The translations under genes were made by a program, and so were the position numbers. A model generated the notes under the pieces. It was not told where the DNA came from. It did not search any database and saw only the letters and a program-made list of their open reading frames with translations. Positions 11,285 through 16,237 of a DNA stretch of 41,783 bases are shown here, piece by piece. The stretch comes from an uncultured Flavobacteriales bacterium (GTDB taxonomy: Bacteria; Bacteroidota; Bacteroidia; Flavobacteriales_G; Salibacteraceae), in assembly GCA_913062955.1 (NCBI GenBank), contig CAJXZP010000033.1, positions 1 to 41,783 on the forward strand. The letters run 5' to 3'. The stretch's first letter is position 1. Every line of letters starts with the position of its first letter.

Positions 11285-12013
11285 ATGAGAGAATCTTCAA
11301 ATCCCATATTAAATACCAAAGCTTTTAATAAAGCTGCAGCTACCTTAAATGATAATCAGGTAATGACTGTTGGAGGTACCATTCAGAAAACATTTATTTT
11401 AACGGCTTTAGTGTTCGCTGGAGCCTTGTATTCTTGGGCTAACCCAAGTACTGTATTGCTTTTAGTGGGTGCCATAGGTGCATTGGTTGTTGGGTTAATA
11501 ACAGCGTTTAAACCGACCTCGGCTCCTGTTACGGCACCTGTTTTTTCGGTGCTGCAAGGGTTGTTTTTGGGAGGGATATCCTTAATTATTAGTCAACAAA
11601 CGGGATCTGGTAATAGTGTTATTCAAGCCATAACCTTGACCATTGGAGTTTTGTTTTTAATGCTGTTTTTGTACAGTTCGGGAATTATTAAGGTGACAGA
11701 AAAGTTAAGAATGGGGGTGGTGGCCGCTACCGGTGCCATTGCATTAATGTATGTAATGAACTTTGTGATGAGCTTTTTTGGAGCTGCGTTTTTTACCTTG
11801 GCGGATACATCCATGATGGCCATTGGAATCAATTTAGTCATTGTGGGTGTCGCTGCATTTAATTTATTGTTGGATTTTGATTTTATTGATAAGGCCGCTG
11901 CTGCTCGTGCTCCAAAAGCCATGGAGTGGTACGGTGCATTTGGATTAATGGTTACCCTAGTTTGGTTGTATATTGAATTATTGAAACTGCTTTCGCGTTT
12001 AAACAGAGATTAA
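11285..12013 (+). CDS. Bax inhibitor-1 / YccA-like membrane protein (242 aa)
   Basis: An N-terminal soluble stretch of about 35 residues is followed by about seven hydrophobic segments, as in the BI-1/YccA superfamily. The N-terminal pattern NPILNTKAFNKAAA and TMTVGGTIQKTFILTAL-like start resemble the bacterial YccA/BI-1 branch (COG4760 type). Proteins of the wider superfamily are pH-sensitive calcium-leak channels; for this branch the role in bacteria is not established. Its stop overlaps the start of the next gene by one base (TAATG), which indicates translational coupling to a periplasmic thioredoxin-fold lipoprotein. Confidence 0.85.
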   Translation: MRESSNPILNTKAFNKAAATLNDNQVMTVGGTIQKTFILTALVFAGALYSWANPSTVLLLVGAIGALVVGLITAFKPTSAPVTAPVFSVLQGLFLGGISLIISQQTGSGNSVIQAITLTIGVLFLMLFLYSSGIIKVTEKLRMGVVAATGAIALMYVMNFVMSFFGAAFFTLADTSMMAIGINLVIVGVAAFNLLLDFDFIDKAAAARAPKAMEWYGAFGLMVTLVWLYIELLKLLSRLNRD

Positions 12014-13695
12014 TGAGAAGAGGAAATTTAAATATAGGATTAGGTTTGGTGATTTCACTAAGCCTTTTTTCTTGTGTATCTGAAAACCAAGAAAAGGAAG
12101 GTCCTTTTAAGGACGTCATTGATTTTAAAAAAGAAATCTCCTTGAAATCGGGCGGTTTGAAAAAAACCATTCATTCTACGGACCAAGTAGAATCCAAAAT
12201 AATCAAGGATCCGAACTGGAACGTGGAGCTCCAGCCCTTTTTGGAAGCCGACTTTAATTCATCTGCAAATCAGGAGAGTTATATCCGAACAGAAACAAAA
12301 GGTCAACTTTCTCCTTGGAGAGATGTATCCTGGGTGAGTACTAATGAAAAATTACCTGTTAAATCGGCTGTTTATCGTTTTGTAGATAGTACGTGTGTGG
12401 GTGTCATTTTGGAAGTGAGAAAATTAACGGCAGCCTATTCAATGGATGAAACGCTGGTGTATTTGCCCAGTTCTGGTTACACCATTAGTAATCATCAAGA
12501 CCTAAGTAATATGAATGAGAATTCATTCTTTTTGTCGGGCCAATTTATGGACGAACCTCAACCATGGAGAATGTTTTTTGACATTGGAGAACAGATTGTT
12601 CCGGTTAATTTTAATATGTCCGTAAAGGGAAATACCAAAATTTTGGAATTTGTTCAAGGTAAAGAATCGTTTAAAGTGGTGGCTTTACAAACTGATTCAG
12701 GGTATTTTGCAGAAATGCCCGTTTTTCAGTCTTATATTTTATTTGATATAAAAGACACAGAACTGAAGGGAACCTTTCATAATCTAGACAAAGGTCCCGA
12801 TTATATTATTCCTTTGTCTGCTAATAAATTGCCCTATGAGATGGTTTATGGTTTGCGTCCAGATGAGGTATTGGCCGATTATTCAGGTAAATGGGAAACC
12901 GTTTTTTATGGGAATGGAGATTCAACTTCGGCCATTGGATTATTTGAACGAATGGGGGATGATTTAATCGGAACCTTTGCTACAGAAACCGGTGATTATC
13001 GATTCTTGCAAGGAAAAGTGGTGGGTGATAGTTTTTCATTAAGTACGTTTGATGGTTCGCACTTGTTCCTTTTTACAGGGAAATTGATGGGGGAGAACAT
13101 AACGGAAGGTCACTTTTATTCGGGGACCCATCACCAGGAGAAATGGGGAGCTGTTCGAAATAATGATTTTGAATTAATAGATCCGAATTCAATGACCACC
13201 CTTCAAAATGAGGAGGTTAAATTTGATTTTTCTTTCCCAAATTTAGAGGGTGAATATGTATCCTTATCGGATAAGAAATACCAGAATAAAGTGATTATTT
13301 TGCAAATATTGGGTTCCTGGTGTCCCAATTGTATGGATGAGACCCGTTACTTTAAAGAACTGTACGATGCTTATCAAGTGGATGGATTGGAAATTATTGG
13401 TTTAGCATTCGAGCGTAGTACAGATTTTGAGGTGGCTAAAGCGGCTTTGAAAAAGTCCACTTTAGATTTGAAGGTTCCTTACCCCATGCTTATTGCAGGT
13501 ACTCCTAAGGAGTCGTCAAAAGCATTACCCATGATTACGCCTATAAAATCGTATCCAACTTCCATTTTTATTAATAGAGCAGGAAAAGTGGTGAAAATTC
13601 ATACGGGGTTTTATGGACCCAGTACGGGGAAGTTTTATGACGATTATCGTGCAGAAACTGAGGTCTTTATTAAAGCCCTTTTACTAGAAAAATAG
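12013..13695 (+). CDS. TlpA-like thioredoxin-fold lipoprotein (560 aa)
   Basis: A signal peptide ends in the lipobox SLFSC (Cys21), so the protein is anchored on the periplasmic side. The C-terminal domain at about 405-555 is TlpA/AhpC-TSA-like: FSFPNLEGEYVSLSD, the redox motif WCPNC (Cys437 and Cys440) and the cis-Pro region SYPTSIFINRAGKV. The first 400 residues are a large, strand-rich region that I do not recognise; it is much longer than in simple TlpA proteins. The likely role is thiol-disulfide exchange with envelope proteins. Coupled to the BI-1-like gene by a one-base overlap. Known TlpA/ResA-type proteins reduce cytochrome or copper-site cysteines; nothing here points to a particular substrate. 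Confidence 0.82.
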   Translation: MRRGNLNIGLGLVISLSLFSCVSENQEKEGPFKDVIDFKKEISLKSGGLKKTIHSTDQVESKIIKDPNWNVELQPFLEADFNSSANQESYIRTETKGQLSPWRDVSWVSTNEKLPVKSAVYRFVDSTCVGVILEVRKLTAAYSMDETLVYLPSSGYTISNHQDLSNMNENSFFLSGQFMDEPQPWRMFFDIGEQIVPVNFNMSVKGNTKILEFVQGKESFKVVALQTDSGYFAEMPVFQSYILFDIKDTELKGTFHNLDKGPDYIIPLSANKLPYEMVYGLRPDEVLADYSGKWETVFYGNGDSTSAIGLFERMGDDLIGTFATETGDYRFLQGKVVGDSFSLSTFDGSHLFLFTGKLMGENITEGHFYSGTHHQEKWGAVRNNDFELIDPNSMTTLQNEEVKFDFSFPNLEGEYVSLSDKKYQNKVIILQILGSWCPNCMDETRYFKELYDAYQVDGLEIIGLAFERSTDFEVAKAALKKSTLDLKVPYPMLIAGTPKESSKALPMITPIKSYPTSIFINRAGKVVKIHTGFYGPSTGKFYDDYRAETEVFIKALLLEK

Positions 13696-13874
13696 ACCCG
13701 TATTTTAGCAATTTAGCGTTATTGTTATTCATGCATACTATTATTAGTCAGGCTTTTGCAAAAATGTAATGCAAACGAGTTATTTCTTTGTTTGACCCCT
13801 TTATTTTTTGCACCTTTGTTGGCTTACAGTGTTTTTCTGGTCTTTAAAACGGAAAAACACGTGAAATTTTGCAT

Positions 13875-15695
13875 ATGATAGTTTCAACGACAAAGTCTCC
13901 ACATTCATTTCATGTTCCTGTGATGGGAATTGCATTTACCATTGATTCACCTATTAAGGTTGCTCATTTTGGTATCTCATCCGTCATATCACTGGTTGAT
14001 GATGAATTGATGGAGCAAATGCGAGGGTTTCACTCGAAGGAGAATAACTACGATTATGAACCGATAACTAAGAAAGATGAGGATTTTAGAGCACGTAGAA
14101 CTGCCGCTTATTTAAATTTGGTTAATAAAATCGTGAAGAGAAATTTTCAAAGAGTTCAACAAAGTGAATTTACACCGGAGAGTGAGATTACAAAGTATTT
14201 TGAAATGCTTCCACCCGACTCATCCATAGTGGAAGTGTATGCTAGAATGTTGGAGTTGCCCATAGGAAATGAGAAGTCAAAGCTTCAAAAAAGTCTACGG
14301 GAGTGCATGCGTCCGGGAAGTATTGATGTAAACATCATGACCAAATTGGATCGGGTTACGTATGCAAAGAAAGATGCATTGCCTATCGAGTTCAATGACG
14401 CACATGCTGCGTTAAGAGGTTATGCCCATAGTGATTTAGATTCCTCGATTATTTTTTCAGCAGGTATGAATCCAAGATTGTATTCCTATATATCCGCTTT
14501 TGAAGATTTCTTCCCGAATTCGGAAGGGAGTCTTAAGAAACGTATTGTTTTAAAAGTAAGTGATTATAGATCCTCTTTGATTCAAGGTAAATTTTTAGCC
14601 AAAAAAGGATTATGGGTATCTGAATACAGAATTGAATCCGGGCTCAATTGTGGCGGACATGCATTCGCCTCGGATGGTTTTCTAATGGGGCCAATTTTGG
14701 ACCAGTTTAGAACGAGTAAAAAAGAATTGATTTCCTCGGTGCACACGATTTTAGTCGATGCACTTGAAAAAGTGAAGAGATTTATCCCGGCAGCACCTAT
14801 GTCTATGATGGTTACCGCTCAAGGTGGAGTTGGAACTACCGAAGAACATAAATTTTTGACCGATCATTATGGAATGGATTCTGTGGGGTGGGGATCACCA
14901 ATGTTATTGGTGCCTGAGGTAACCACGGTAGATACACCTACTCGGAATTTATTGTTGAAGGCGCGGGAAAAAGATTTGTATTTGAGTAATATTTCTCCCC
15001 TGGGAATTCCGTTTAATTCATTGAGGGGGAATACGCAAGATGCGATAAAACTTCAAAAAATTGCGGATGGTCGCCCCGGTTCTTCTTGTCCTTTGAGTTA
15101 CTTGGTATCGAGTAAAGAATTTACAGAAAAAGCGATTTGTACAGCTTCTAGACAATATCAAAAACATAAGCTGAAAGCTTTAGATGCTTTAGATTTAGCA
15201 AAAGTAGAGTATAAAAAGCAATTTGATAAAATCACGGAAAAATCCTGTATTTGCGTTGGTTTAGGTACTTCTGCGGTTCAAGTAAATCATTTGGAGAATA
15301 AGGTTAGAGGAGAGGGTATTTCAATTTGTCCAGGCCCTAATATGGCTTATTTTGATGAGGTGATTTCTTTAAAGAAAATGGCGAATCATATTTATGGGAA
15401 GATTAACATTTTAGGGGATAATTACCGTCCAAATATGTTTGTGAAAGAAATAGGTCTGTATGTGGATTATTTGGAAAACAAGATTAAAGAAGTTTCTGAG
15501 CCCATAGATAAACAAATAAAATACTTCAATACTTTTCAAAAGAACATGGAAGAAGGAATATCTTATTATAAGAATTTATTCTCGGATGTAATGAAAAATT
15601 CGGAAAGTGTAAAAACAAAAATTGCGGCCGAAATTGATGAAATGGAAGCTAAATTGGAAGCGTTAAAAGCAGAACTGGCTTTAGCCATTGCTTAA
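13875..15695 (+). CDS. Uncharacterised protein resembling an FMN TIM-barrel enzyme (nitronate monooxygenase-like), with Cys-rich C-terminus (606 aa)
   Basis: I take ATG 13875 as start; an in-frame TTG lies two codons upstream. Three segments recall the nitronate monooxygenase / 2-nitropropane dioxygenase fold in order: an N-terminal PVMGIAFTIDSPIKVAHFGI stretch, GLNCGGHAF at 256-264 (compare GxEAGGHxG), and AQGGVG at 315-320 followed by DSVGWGSPMLLVPE at 335-348 (compare the GGI and GTRFLxTxE segments that hold the FMN phosphate). It is far longer than typical members. Cys405, 422, 458, 460 and 485 lie in the C-terminal half and could hold a metal cluster. The last 80 residues are a charged coiled coil. 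The gene stands alone between a 180-base gap and a strong terminator. I recall homologues only as hypothetical proteins; the enzyme assignment is inference. Confidence 0.6.
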   Translation: MIVSTTKSPHSFHVPVMGIAFTIDSPIKVAHFGISSVISLVDDELMEQMRGFHSKENNYDYEPITKKDEDFRARRTAAYLNLVNKIVKRNFQRVQQSEFTPESEITKYFEMLPPDSSIVEVYARMLELPIGNEKSKLQKSLRECMRPGSIDVNIMTKLDRVTYAKKDALPIEFNDAHAALRGYAHSDLDSSIIFSAGMNPRLYSYISAFEDFFPNSEGSLKKRIVLKVSDYRSSLIQGKFLAKKGLWVSEYRIESGLNCGGHAFASDGFLMGPILDQFRTSKKELISSVHTILVDALEKVKRFIPAAPMSMMVTAQGGVGTTEEHKFLTDHYGMDSVGWGSPMLLVPEVTTVDTPTRNLLLKAREKDLYLSNISPLGIPFNSLRGNTQDAIKLQKIADGRPGSSCPLSYLVSSKEFTEKAICTASRQYQKHKLKALDALDLAKVEYKKQFDKITEKSCICVGLGTSAVQVNHLENKVRGEGISICPGPNMAYFDEVISLKKMANHIYGKINILGDNYRPNMFVKEIGLYVDYLENKIKEVSEPIDKQIKYFNTFQKNMEEGISYYKNLFSDVMKNSESVKTKIAAEIDEMEAKLEALKAELALAIA

Positions 15696-15716
15696 CAAGT
15701 CTTTAATGGTTTTGAA

Positions 15717-15748
15717 AAAGAGCTTACTCCGGTAAGCTCTTTTTTTTG
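15717..15748 (+). terminator. Rho-independent terminator after the NMO-like gene
   Basis: Stem AAGAGCTTAC/GTAAGCTCTT with a TCCG loop and a run of eight T. Confidence 0.92.
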
Positions 15749-16023
15749 TTTAATTTTTCTGATCTGATAGGATTTCATTAAGCAGTTTCATGTGTAAAAT
15801 AATAAATAGGTGTTTAAGATATGAATTTGGTCAATTCCCGTTCTGTTTTCATTTCTTCAAATCGAGAGTCTGTTTTTTAAAATTTGAGCATTCTCAAAGG
15901 GTAGATTTCCCAATATACTTTTTGTGGATACTATTTGGATGTATTAAATGATCGGTAATGTTTGGGTTTATGGAATGTATTTAACTAGATTTGAATTGTT
16001 TATGAGGTGTGAATCTAGGGATT
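15749..16023. other. Non-coding stretch, no feature recognised
   Basis: Between two terminators pointing towards each other. A TAGATTTG occurs near 15986 but no gene follows it; the only frame that starts nearby runs through the tRNA terminator and the tRNA antisense strand, so I do not call it. Confidence 0.5.
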
Positions 16024-16060
16024 GGACAAAAAAAAGACCGCTTATTACTAAGCGGTCTTT
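16024..16060 (-). terminator. Rho-independent terminator of tRNA-Phe
   Basis: Perfect 12-bp stem AAAGACCGCTTA (16033-16044) and TAAGCGGTCTTT (16049-16060), loop of four bases, followed on the minus strand by a T-run. It starts four bases after the tRNA 3' end. Confidence 0.9.
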
Positions 16061-16064
16061 GAAG

Positions 16065-16137
16065 TGGTGCCTCCAGGAATCGAACCAGGGACACATGGAT
16101 TTTCAGTCCATTGCTCTACCAACTGAGCTAAGGCACC
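16065..16137 (-). tRNA. tRNA-Phe (anticodon GAA)
   Basis: 73 bases fold into a full cloverleaf on the minus strand: acceptor GGTGCCT/AGGCACC, D arm GCTC/GAGC, anticodon arm ATGGA-CTGAAAA-TCCAT with GAA, T arm CCTGG-TTCGATT-CCTGG, discriminator A. CCA is not encoded. It has its own promoter and terminator, so it is a single-gene transcript. Confidence 0.98.
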
Positions 16138-16170
16138 TCCGTGTGTTGTGCGTTGCTGCTCAACGGGCGA

Positions 16171-16199
16171 CAAAAGTACGTATGTTTTTTGGATTACAA
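16171..16199 (-). promoter_or_regulatory. Promoter of tRNA-Phe
   Basis: On the minus strand TTG, 18 bases, TACTTTTG: a full match to the Bacteroidota promoter TTG-N17-20-TAnnTTTG. The tRNA 5' end lies about 34 bases downstream. This is the clearest promoter in the window. Confidence 0.8.
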
Positions 16200-16237
16200 A
16201 TACTTTTCTGAAAATATTTTTATTTAATTTCAAATCG

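Follow-up and report, generated by a model that had tools for sequence, protein, structure and literature searches.

The described proteins closest to the family reported here are FabX, the PfaD-type enoyl reductases, FabK, and the nitronate monooxygenases (NMOs). FabK and the NMOs (PF03060) have an FMN-type barrel fold with a GGH loop, and PfaD and the trans-acting enoyl reductases of polyunsaturated fatty acid (PUFA) and trans-AT polyketide synthases have a barrel with extra helical parts; the family shares these features. PfaD-type enoyl reductases use NAD(P)H and are not known to have a cluster domain, and we know of no cysteine subdomain in FabK or the NMOs. FabX (HP0773; PDB 7e1q, 9lt5, and 9lt8) is the FMN/[4Fe-4S] decanoyl-ACP dehydrogenase/isomerase of Helicobacter pylori. 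According to the parts of its published description used here (PMC8626469), it carries FMN and a [4Fe-4S] cluster on an NMO-type barrel, dehydrogenates decanoyl-ACP by means of His182 and the flavin, stores an electron on the cluster, and reduces oxygen, with its cluster domain standing where FabK has an NAD(P)H motif. The FMN contacts and cluster ligands of FabX given below come from the same parts of that paper (PMC8626469), and the consulted part of another (PMC11300592) reports a FabX homologue at about 40% identity from gut Bacteroidales.

The window analyzed here, the whole 41,783 nucleotides of contig CAJXZP010000033.1 from an uncultured Flavobacteriales bacterium, contains a gene for a FabX-like protein, which the earlier note had taken for an NMO-like enzyme with a cysteine-rich C-terminal half and a terminal coiled coil. 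Its features are as follows, with residues counted from the TTG start codon (the numbers of the earlier note, counted from the ATG at 13875, plus 2).

13791..13818, + strand: possible Bacteroidota-type promoter, TTTG ... CACCTTTG, judged by eye
13869..15695, + strand: gene of the FabX-like protein, a single open reading frame (ORF) of 608 amino acids from TTG (606 amino acids from the alternative ATG at 13875)
13995..14306, + strand: helical insertion, residues 43 to 146, between barrel strands 1 and 2 (predicted secondary structure; strands assigned by eye)
14634..14660, + strand: ESGLNCGGH (256 to 264), equivalent of FabX E175...S179-G-G-H182, conserved in 94 to 96 of 96 rows per position (by eye and hhalign)
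14820..14828, + strand: QGG (318 to 320), invariant in 96 of 96 rows, with G319-G320 equivalent to the FMN contact G220-G221 of FabX (hhalign)
14886..14897, + strand: GW-G/A-S/T (340 to 343), equivalent of the FMN contact Q240-M-A-T243 of FabX (conservation and hhalign)
14994..15005, + strand: SPLG (376 to 379), equivalent of FabX SPVG (hhalign and conservation)
15087..15089, + strand: Cys407, invariant, aligned with the FabX cluster ligand C300 (hhalign)
15138..15140, + strand: Cys424, invariant, probable cluster ligand with an uncertain FabX partner
15246..15254, + strand: Cys460-x-Cys462, invariant, probable cluster ligands (by eye and predicted helix order)
15327..15341, + strand: CPGPN (487 to 491), equivalent of FabX F339-T-G-A-N (conservation; PGPN/TGAN register in hhalign)
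15435..15689, + strand: C-terminal three-helix bundle, residues 523 to 607 (predicted structure and bundle matches)
15714..15745, + strand: intrinsic terminator-like hairpin directly 3' of the gene, 14 pairs with a T tail

Translation of the ORF bears out the order GLNCGGHAF (258 to 266), AQGGVG (317 to 322), and DSVGWGSPMLLVPE (337 to 350), which had been likened to the FMN-binding segments of NMOs, and the five C-terminal cysteines first numbered 405, 422, 458, 460, and 485 are C407, C424, C460, C462, and C487. The protein does exceed an NMO of 350 residues by about 250. Approximately 100 of these extra residues make up the insertion and approximately 90 the C-terminal tail, with limits set by eye on the predicted secondary structure. 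The insertion carries the highly conserved EITKYFEM (106 to 113). Residues 72 to 164, mostly helical insertion, match weakly phrog_11970, of unknown function (E 1.9e-4; PHROGs).

Structure prediction with AlphaFold2 on 54 sequences (pLDDT 91.1, pTM 0.92) gave an alternating strand-helix barrel with an insertion at about residues 43 to 146, a loop-and-helix subdomain at about 400 to 515, and three helices at 523 to 607. The predicted fold is an NMO-type (NMO-superfamily) TIM barrel, as a reading as an NMO-like enzyme demands. Among solved structures, Foldseek placed PfaD (4z9r, E 2.1e-10) first and two FabX entries (3.1e-10 and 4.0e-10) next, with other trans-acting enoyl reductases, FabK, and NMOs below these three. 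Whole-length TM-scores are low, being 0.33 for PfaD and, for FabX, 0.38 to 0.42 over the query and 0.59 to 0.66 over the target (0.41 and 0.64 for 9lt8).

VIA-align, in turn, ranks five FabX entries first (Z 25.1 to 26.6, rmsd 3.1 to 3.3, 323 to 338 residues), the best match being H. pylori FabX at a Z of 26.6. PfaD follows with at most 24.3 (24.3 for 4yx6), then FabK with at most 23.6 and the enoyl-reductase regions of fatty acid synthases with at most 23.4. Entries whose titles name a nitronate monooxygenase, a nitroalkane oxidase, or a 2-nitropropane dioxygenase score 19.6 to 22.6, and FabK and the NMOs together span 19.6 to 23.6. The best FabX entries stand about 2 Z units above the best PfaD entry, and the weakest FabX entry differs from that PfaD entry by 0.8, a tie where 1 Z unit counts as one. 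The PfaD-type entries superimpose with an rmsd of 7.4 Å (4yx6 and 4z9r) or 4.7 Å (6lkc). For FabX 9lt5, 332 of 363 residues are aligned, so that the alignment must take in 66 or more of the 97 residues that make up the iron-sulfur subdomain (267 to 363). The best match in a viral fold library is one COG2070 protein (E 1.5e-3). The C-terminal half folded alone (pTM 0.65) gave no FabX match; the matches listed are mostly helical bundles with Z up to 12.7, below the Z of about 13 that is typical of such bundle matches. What had been proposed as a C-terminal coiled coil is predicted to consist of three long helices, for which the matches are antiparallel three-helix bundles.

Searches of Pfam, NCBIfam, PHROGs, and PDB sequences returned no convincing match to the FabX-like protein. 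The candidates FadA (E 0.017) and DUF4455 (E 0.49) in Pfam and EpsA (E 0.053) in NCBIfam are weak. The Pfam family Apolipoprotein was matched by 8 of 54 members (best E 6e-4), and a PDB profile search retrieved 10 apolipoprotein A-I sequences (E 0.16 to 0.72) over the tail only; the Apolipoprotein match was read as an amphipathic-helix resemblance in the tail. The window protein has no match to PF03060 up to E 1 in a first Pfam scan or E 10 in a second, and PF03060 is absent among the matches listed for 54 members (25 of 57 families). FabX is absent up to E 10 from phmmer/hmmsearch searches of the PDB sequences, and similarity to it is visible only from profile to profile, not in single-sequence searches.

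H. pylori FabX and five homologues from Bacteroidota at about 40% identity, a degree of sequence homology to FabX that the family does not show, made up the FabX profile. The uncut family profile matches it weakly (probability 21%, P 0.001; hhalign). The core, from which insertion 43-146 and the tail were removed, matches it with a score of 44.1 (probability 70%, P 4e-5), compared with 24.4 for the best of 100 column shuffles and 21.8 and 22.2 for reversed profiles. Residues 311 to 515 alone score 31.8 (maximum of 100 shuffles, 22.9). Against a mixed set of seven FabK/NMO members the core scores 30.6. Against single sequences it scores 24.1 to 32.5 for six FabX proteins (26.0 for H. pylori FabX, slightly over the shuffle maximum) and 13.2 to 24.1 for seven FabK/NMO proteins. 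Among the families compared, FabX thus comes closest, though the margin is modest, and the VIA-align ranking together with the profile scores (44.1 versus 30.6) makes it, rather than an NMO, the nearest known relative. Of the NMO-like assignment, the superfamily barrel stands, but the place of the nearest relative passes to FabX.

Members of the family are present in 142 of 395 sampled Bacteroidota genomes (counting the source genome, and G347, which is represented by a 138-residue fragment only), in 15 of 60 genomes of a set of relatives (source genome counted), in 3 of 143 genomes from the class of a gammaproteobacterium, and in 6 of 99 from the class of an Omnitrophota genome. Sixty-one named loci, a sample found with short peptide patterns of the query, carry labels of ten phylum-level groups, Bacteroidota, Ignavibacteriota, Balneolota, Rhodothermota, Omnitrophota, Zixibacteria, Planctomycetota, Chlamydiota, Gemmatimonadota, and Pseudomonadota, with a few loci bearing no phylum-level label. 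Pairwise identity is 41 to 99% (median, 49%) in an alignment of 96 rows, which represent the fetched loci (relatives' set, phylum sample, and named loci) rather than every match among the 395 genomes, and from which 12 of 107 BLAST rows were left out (six identical copies and six fragments). A 58-row tree mostly follows the phyla, with 10 label changes where the minimum possible is 9. The distribution is patchy and mostly single copy, with no evident operon. This is a widespread, strongly conserved, and real family for which a name was found nowhere in the databases and literature searched: no paper was found on an NMO with iron-sulfur in Bacteroidetes, and no mention of the family was recognized in the titles and abstract openings of the FabX literature.

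The family and FabX have in common the barrel fold, a cysteine-bearing C-terminal subdomain built around an SPxG turn, the catalytic-histidine loop (x-GGH), the FMN loops, and a terminal xGxN loop at the flavin. The catalytic histidine that follows GG in FabX (H182) is matched by H264, and E256, G262, G263, H264, N155, G319, G320, and G340 are invariant in all 96 rows. By eye, N155 appears to correspond to N99 of FabX, and a helix aligned with the ACP-binding helix alpha-7 of FabX keeps R234 (96/96), K241 (86/96), and K245 (90/96). In the GW-G/A-S/T motif, G340 and W341 are present in all 96 rows, G342 in 78 (alanine in 17), and S343 in 55 (threonine in 41). The SPVG of FabX lies just past the point where its iron-sulfur subdomain begins, and the region where an NAD(P)H site as in FabK and PfaD would be expected aligned to the cluster domain of FabX instead. 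The family differs from FabX in its length (608 versus 363 residues), in the 104-residue insertion and the extra C-terminal helical bundle, in a flavin loop that is one residue longer before CGGH, and in having Cys261 at the position of FabX Ser179, Cys487 at that of Phe339, and Gly340 at that of Gln240.

The window protein contains seven cysteines. Six of them (C261, C407, C424, C460, C462, and C487) occur in every one of the 96 rows, and the seventh (C146) is not conserved. All five cysteines of the C-terminal half are therefore kept throughout the aligned members, and C261 joins them, although the earlier note did not list it despite its place within the GLNCGGHAF motif. Six of the seven cysteines fall on just 61 invariant columns (hypergeometric P 5e-6, a rough figure since the rows are related), so their conservation exceeds chance. 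In the rows left out of the alignment, the six cysteines are conserved wherever the site is covered. The five C-terminal cysteines are separated by 16, 35, 1, and 24 residues, a spacing that does not match the C-x3-C-x3-C-x11-C of the FabX cluster ligands.

Of these cysteines, C407 pairs with C300 of FabX. By eye, C460-I-C-V-G-L corresponds to C320-I-A-D-G-L of FabX, because in both proteins the helix that begins at this cysteine is followed directly by the loop that contacts the flavin (FTGAN in FabX; CPGPN in the family, preceded by a predicted helix at 461 to 472). This pairing is provisional, as the hhalign paths instead place FabX C320 beside C424, which by order would pair with C304 or C308. 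In the register of FTGAN and CPGPN, Cys487 would lie at the flavin. By eye and in the hhalign register, C261 and C487 probably occupy positions whose FabX equivalents, S179 and F339, touch FMN, and these extra conserved cysteines suggest a modified chemistry.

The genome content was compared with that expected for unsaturated fatty acid synthesis. FabX, at E 1e-30, occurs in 5 of the 395 Bacteroidota genomes, none of which has a match to the desaturase family PF00487 (0/5, Fisher P 0.013), and this exclusion fits, as expected, an alternative route to unsaturated fatty acids. The family, in contrast, coexists with desaturases: PF00487 is matched in 111 of 142 family genomes and 116 of 253 others (Fisher P 2.6e-10, a positive association; the 227 genomes are all matches at E 1e-3, and 224 pass the cut-off). 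FabX itself is found in none of the 142 family genomes (P 0.16, with just 5 FabX genomes). The idea that the family replaces other unsaturated fatty acid routes is not supported, since it does not simply replace desaturases that are present in 111 of its 142 genomes, and with this coexistence genome content gives no pointer to unsaturated fatty acid synthesis.

Outside Bacteroidota, a PF00487 match is missing in 9 of 13 family genomes (completeness not given), and 10 of the same 13 have some PF03060 match, 6 of them over the cut-off. The three gammaproteobacterial family genomes have FabA matches below the cut-off only, and 76 of the 143 genomes of the class lack one over it anyway. A FabX search of eight family genomes returned matches in three (30 to 39% identity over parts, E 4e-12 or weaker), which we read as FabK/NMO proteins. 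In the source genome, three PF03060 matches fall on two genes, and neither gene passes the FabX threshold of E 1e-30.

Among the loci examined, neither a neighbor gene that recurs across phyla nor a lipid gene as a recurrent neighbor was seen. Within the fetched flanks, bioB-like genes occur in 11 of 61 loci and thiC-like genes in 15 of 61 (named by eye). In one Omnitrophota locus (L046:4664-9476), the family gene lies between a divergent bioB-like and a convergent thiC-like gene; as an operon clue, the order of bioB, family gene, and thiC in Omnitrophota fits no defensible mechanism.

Taken together, the invariant cysteines, the NMO-type barrel, and FabX as the best match make a flavo-iron-sulfur enzyme plausible. 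We favor, with moderate confidence, a flavin and iron-sulfur oxidoreductase on the FabX plan that acts on an acyl thioester, and we propose an FMN/[Fe-S] acyl-thioester dehydrogenase that may also be an isomerase. We infer both cofactors, the ligating cysteines, the substrate, and which way the electrons flow as follows. FMN would sit in the TIM barrel, where His264 would take the alpha proton from an acyl thioester (acyl-ACP or acyl-CoA) and a hydride would pass to the flavin. An [Fe-S] cluster in the 400-490 subdomain, with C407, C424, C460, and C462 as the likeliest four ligands, would store or pass on one electron, and an enoyl thioester, possibly isomerized, would result. C261 and C487 would flank the flavin and could tune it or join the redox cycle. 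It is speculative, and improbable on balance, that next to the iron-sulfur cluster they act as a redox-active pair of thiols or are joined to the flavin as a covalent cysteinyl-FMN; if so, this would be a flavin/thiol/iron-sulfur enzyme with a reaction new to the NMO superfamily, possibly on a lipid-bound substrate.

The same parts could also run in reverse, as a ferredoxin-fed enoyl-thioester reductase in which the cluster would be the electron inlet to FMN and would replace the NAD(P)H site of FabK and PfaD. Since the cluster domain of FabX replaces the NAD(P)H motif of FabK, according to the parts of the FabX paper used here (PMC8626469), the same geometry could serve reduction, and the next fold matches are PfaD, the fatty acid synthase enoyl-reductase regions, and FabK. 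Oxoacid:ferredoxin oxidoreductase-like genes (named by eye) also lie near the family gene in 5 of 61 loci, in Omnitrophota, but this proximity is probably due to chance, FabX itself runs as a dehydrogenase, and the core scores lower against the mixed FabK/NMO set. A ferredoxin-driven reductase is a serious rival, if an unlikely one.

Two further readings concern the cysteines. They may hold zinc or form a structural site in place of an iron-sulfur cluster, as their spacing matches no cluster motif that we know of and C-x-C pairs are frequent in zinc sites; the subdomain nevertheless aligns with the cluster subdomain of FabX in its order and in the SPxG, CP, and xGPN/TGAN landmarks, and a zinc or structural site is unlikely. 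If the cysteines were structural in a true NMO or a similar flavin oxygenase that detoxifies nitronates, the shared superfamily fold (Z 19.6 to 22.6 for nitronate and nitroalkane entries) would follow, and a patchy, mostly single-copy spread with no evident operon would suit a detoxification gene. FabX is closer by both fold and profile, however, the Pfam matches of the window protein do not include PF03060, and six invariant cysteines are atypical of NMOs and, to our knowledge, no feature of these enzymes, all of which renders this reading very unlikely.

Under the favored reading, as an acyl-thioester dehydrogenase on the FabX plan, the family is no undescribed kind of enzyme, since FabX already joins FMN with [4Fe-4S] on the same barrel. 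The earlier claim of an undescribed flavo-iron-sulfur enzyme therefore survives for the family, which is named nowhere in our searches, but not for the combination of cofactors. What is new is a family that has no name, is deeply conserved, and differs in its active site, set apart from FabX by its cysteine spacing, two invariant cysteines at FMN-contact positions, a helical insertion of about 100 residues, and the C-terminal helical bundle. The cysteine spacing, the change of Gln240 to glycine, the lack of a FabX match for the C-terminal half, and the putative status of the cofactors argue against filing it as FabX, and it is most probably a separate family beside FabX that works like it. About a third of the sampled Bacteroidota genomes and scattered phyla thus carry a probable redox enzyme that Pfam and NCBIfam do not name, and its placement near FabX gives a testable cofactor set, catalytic residue, and substrate class for a protein that is blank in sequence searches. 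Should acyl thioesters be its substrates, bacterial lipid metabolism would have one more flavo-iron-sulfur enzyme, often present alongside desaturases, and a role of C261 and C487 at the flavin, if real, would widen the range of reactions in the NMO superfamily.

Within the window, the gene appears to be transcribed alone, as suggested by the hairpin at 15714-15745, the end of the upstream ORF at 13695, and a downstream ORF that is probably spurious. This ORF (15948-16211, 87 amino acids) overlaps a minus-strand tRNA-Phe gene (16064-16137) and, on the same strand as the tRNA, a terminator-like hairpin (16060-16033), and is therefore probably no gene. The upstream promoter candidate resembles the Bacteroidota consensus by eye, and the string TTTTTTGCACCTTTG upstream of the gene is also found upstream of its homologue at locus L003. 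The upstream ORF (12013-13695) encodes a 560-amino-acid protein in which a thioredoxin/AhpC-TSA domain is confined to residues 405 to 532, close to the end, with no Pfam match up to E 1 outside these residues. Plasmid and phage searches gave no match that would indicate mobile carriage of the FabX-like gene.

Elsewhere in the family, the gene is broken across two ORFs at one locus (L099:7977-9781), one genome (G152) carries a full-length copy and, at a different place, a degraded second one with stops, and another (G209) has two full copies. Closely similar copies from Zunongwangia, Mesonia, Salegentibacter, and Leeuwenhoekiella (L082, L083, L084, L086, L087, L094, and L095) share one long branch of the tree, with different neighbors at L094, and are candidates for recent transfer among Flavobacteriaceae.
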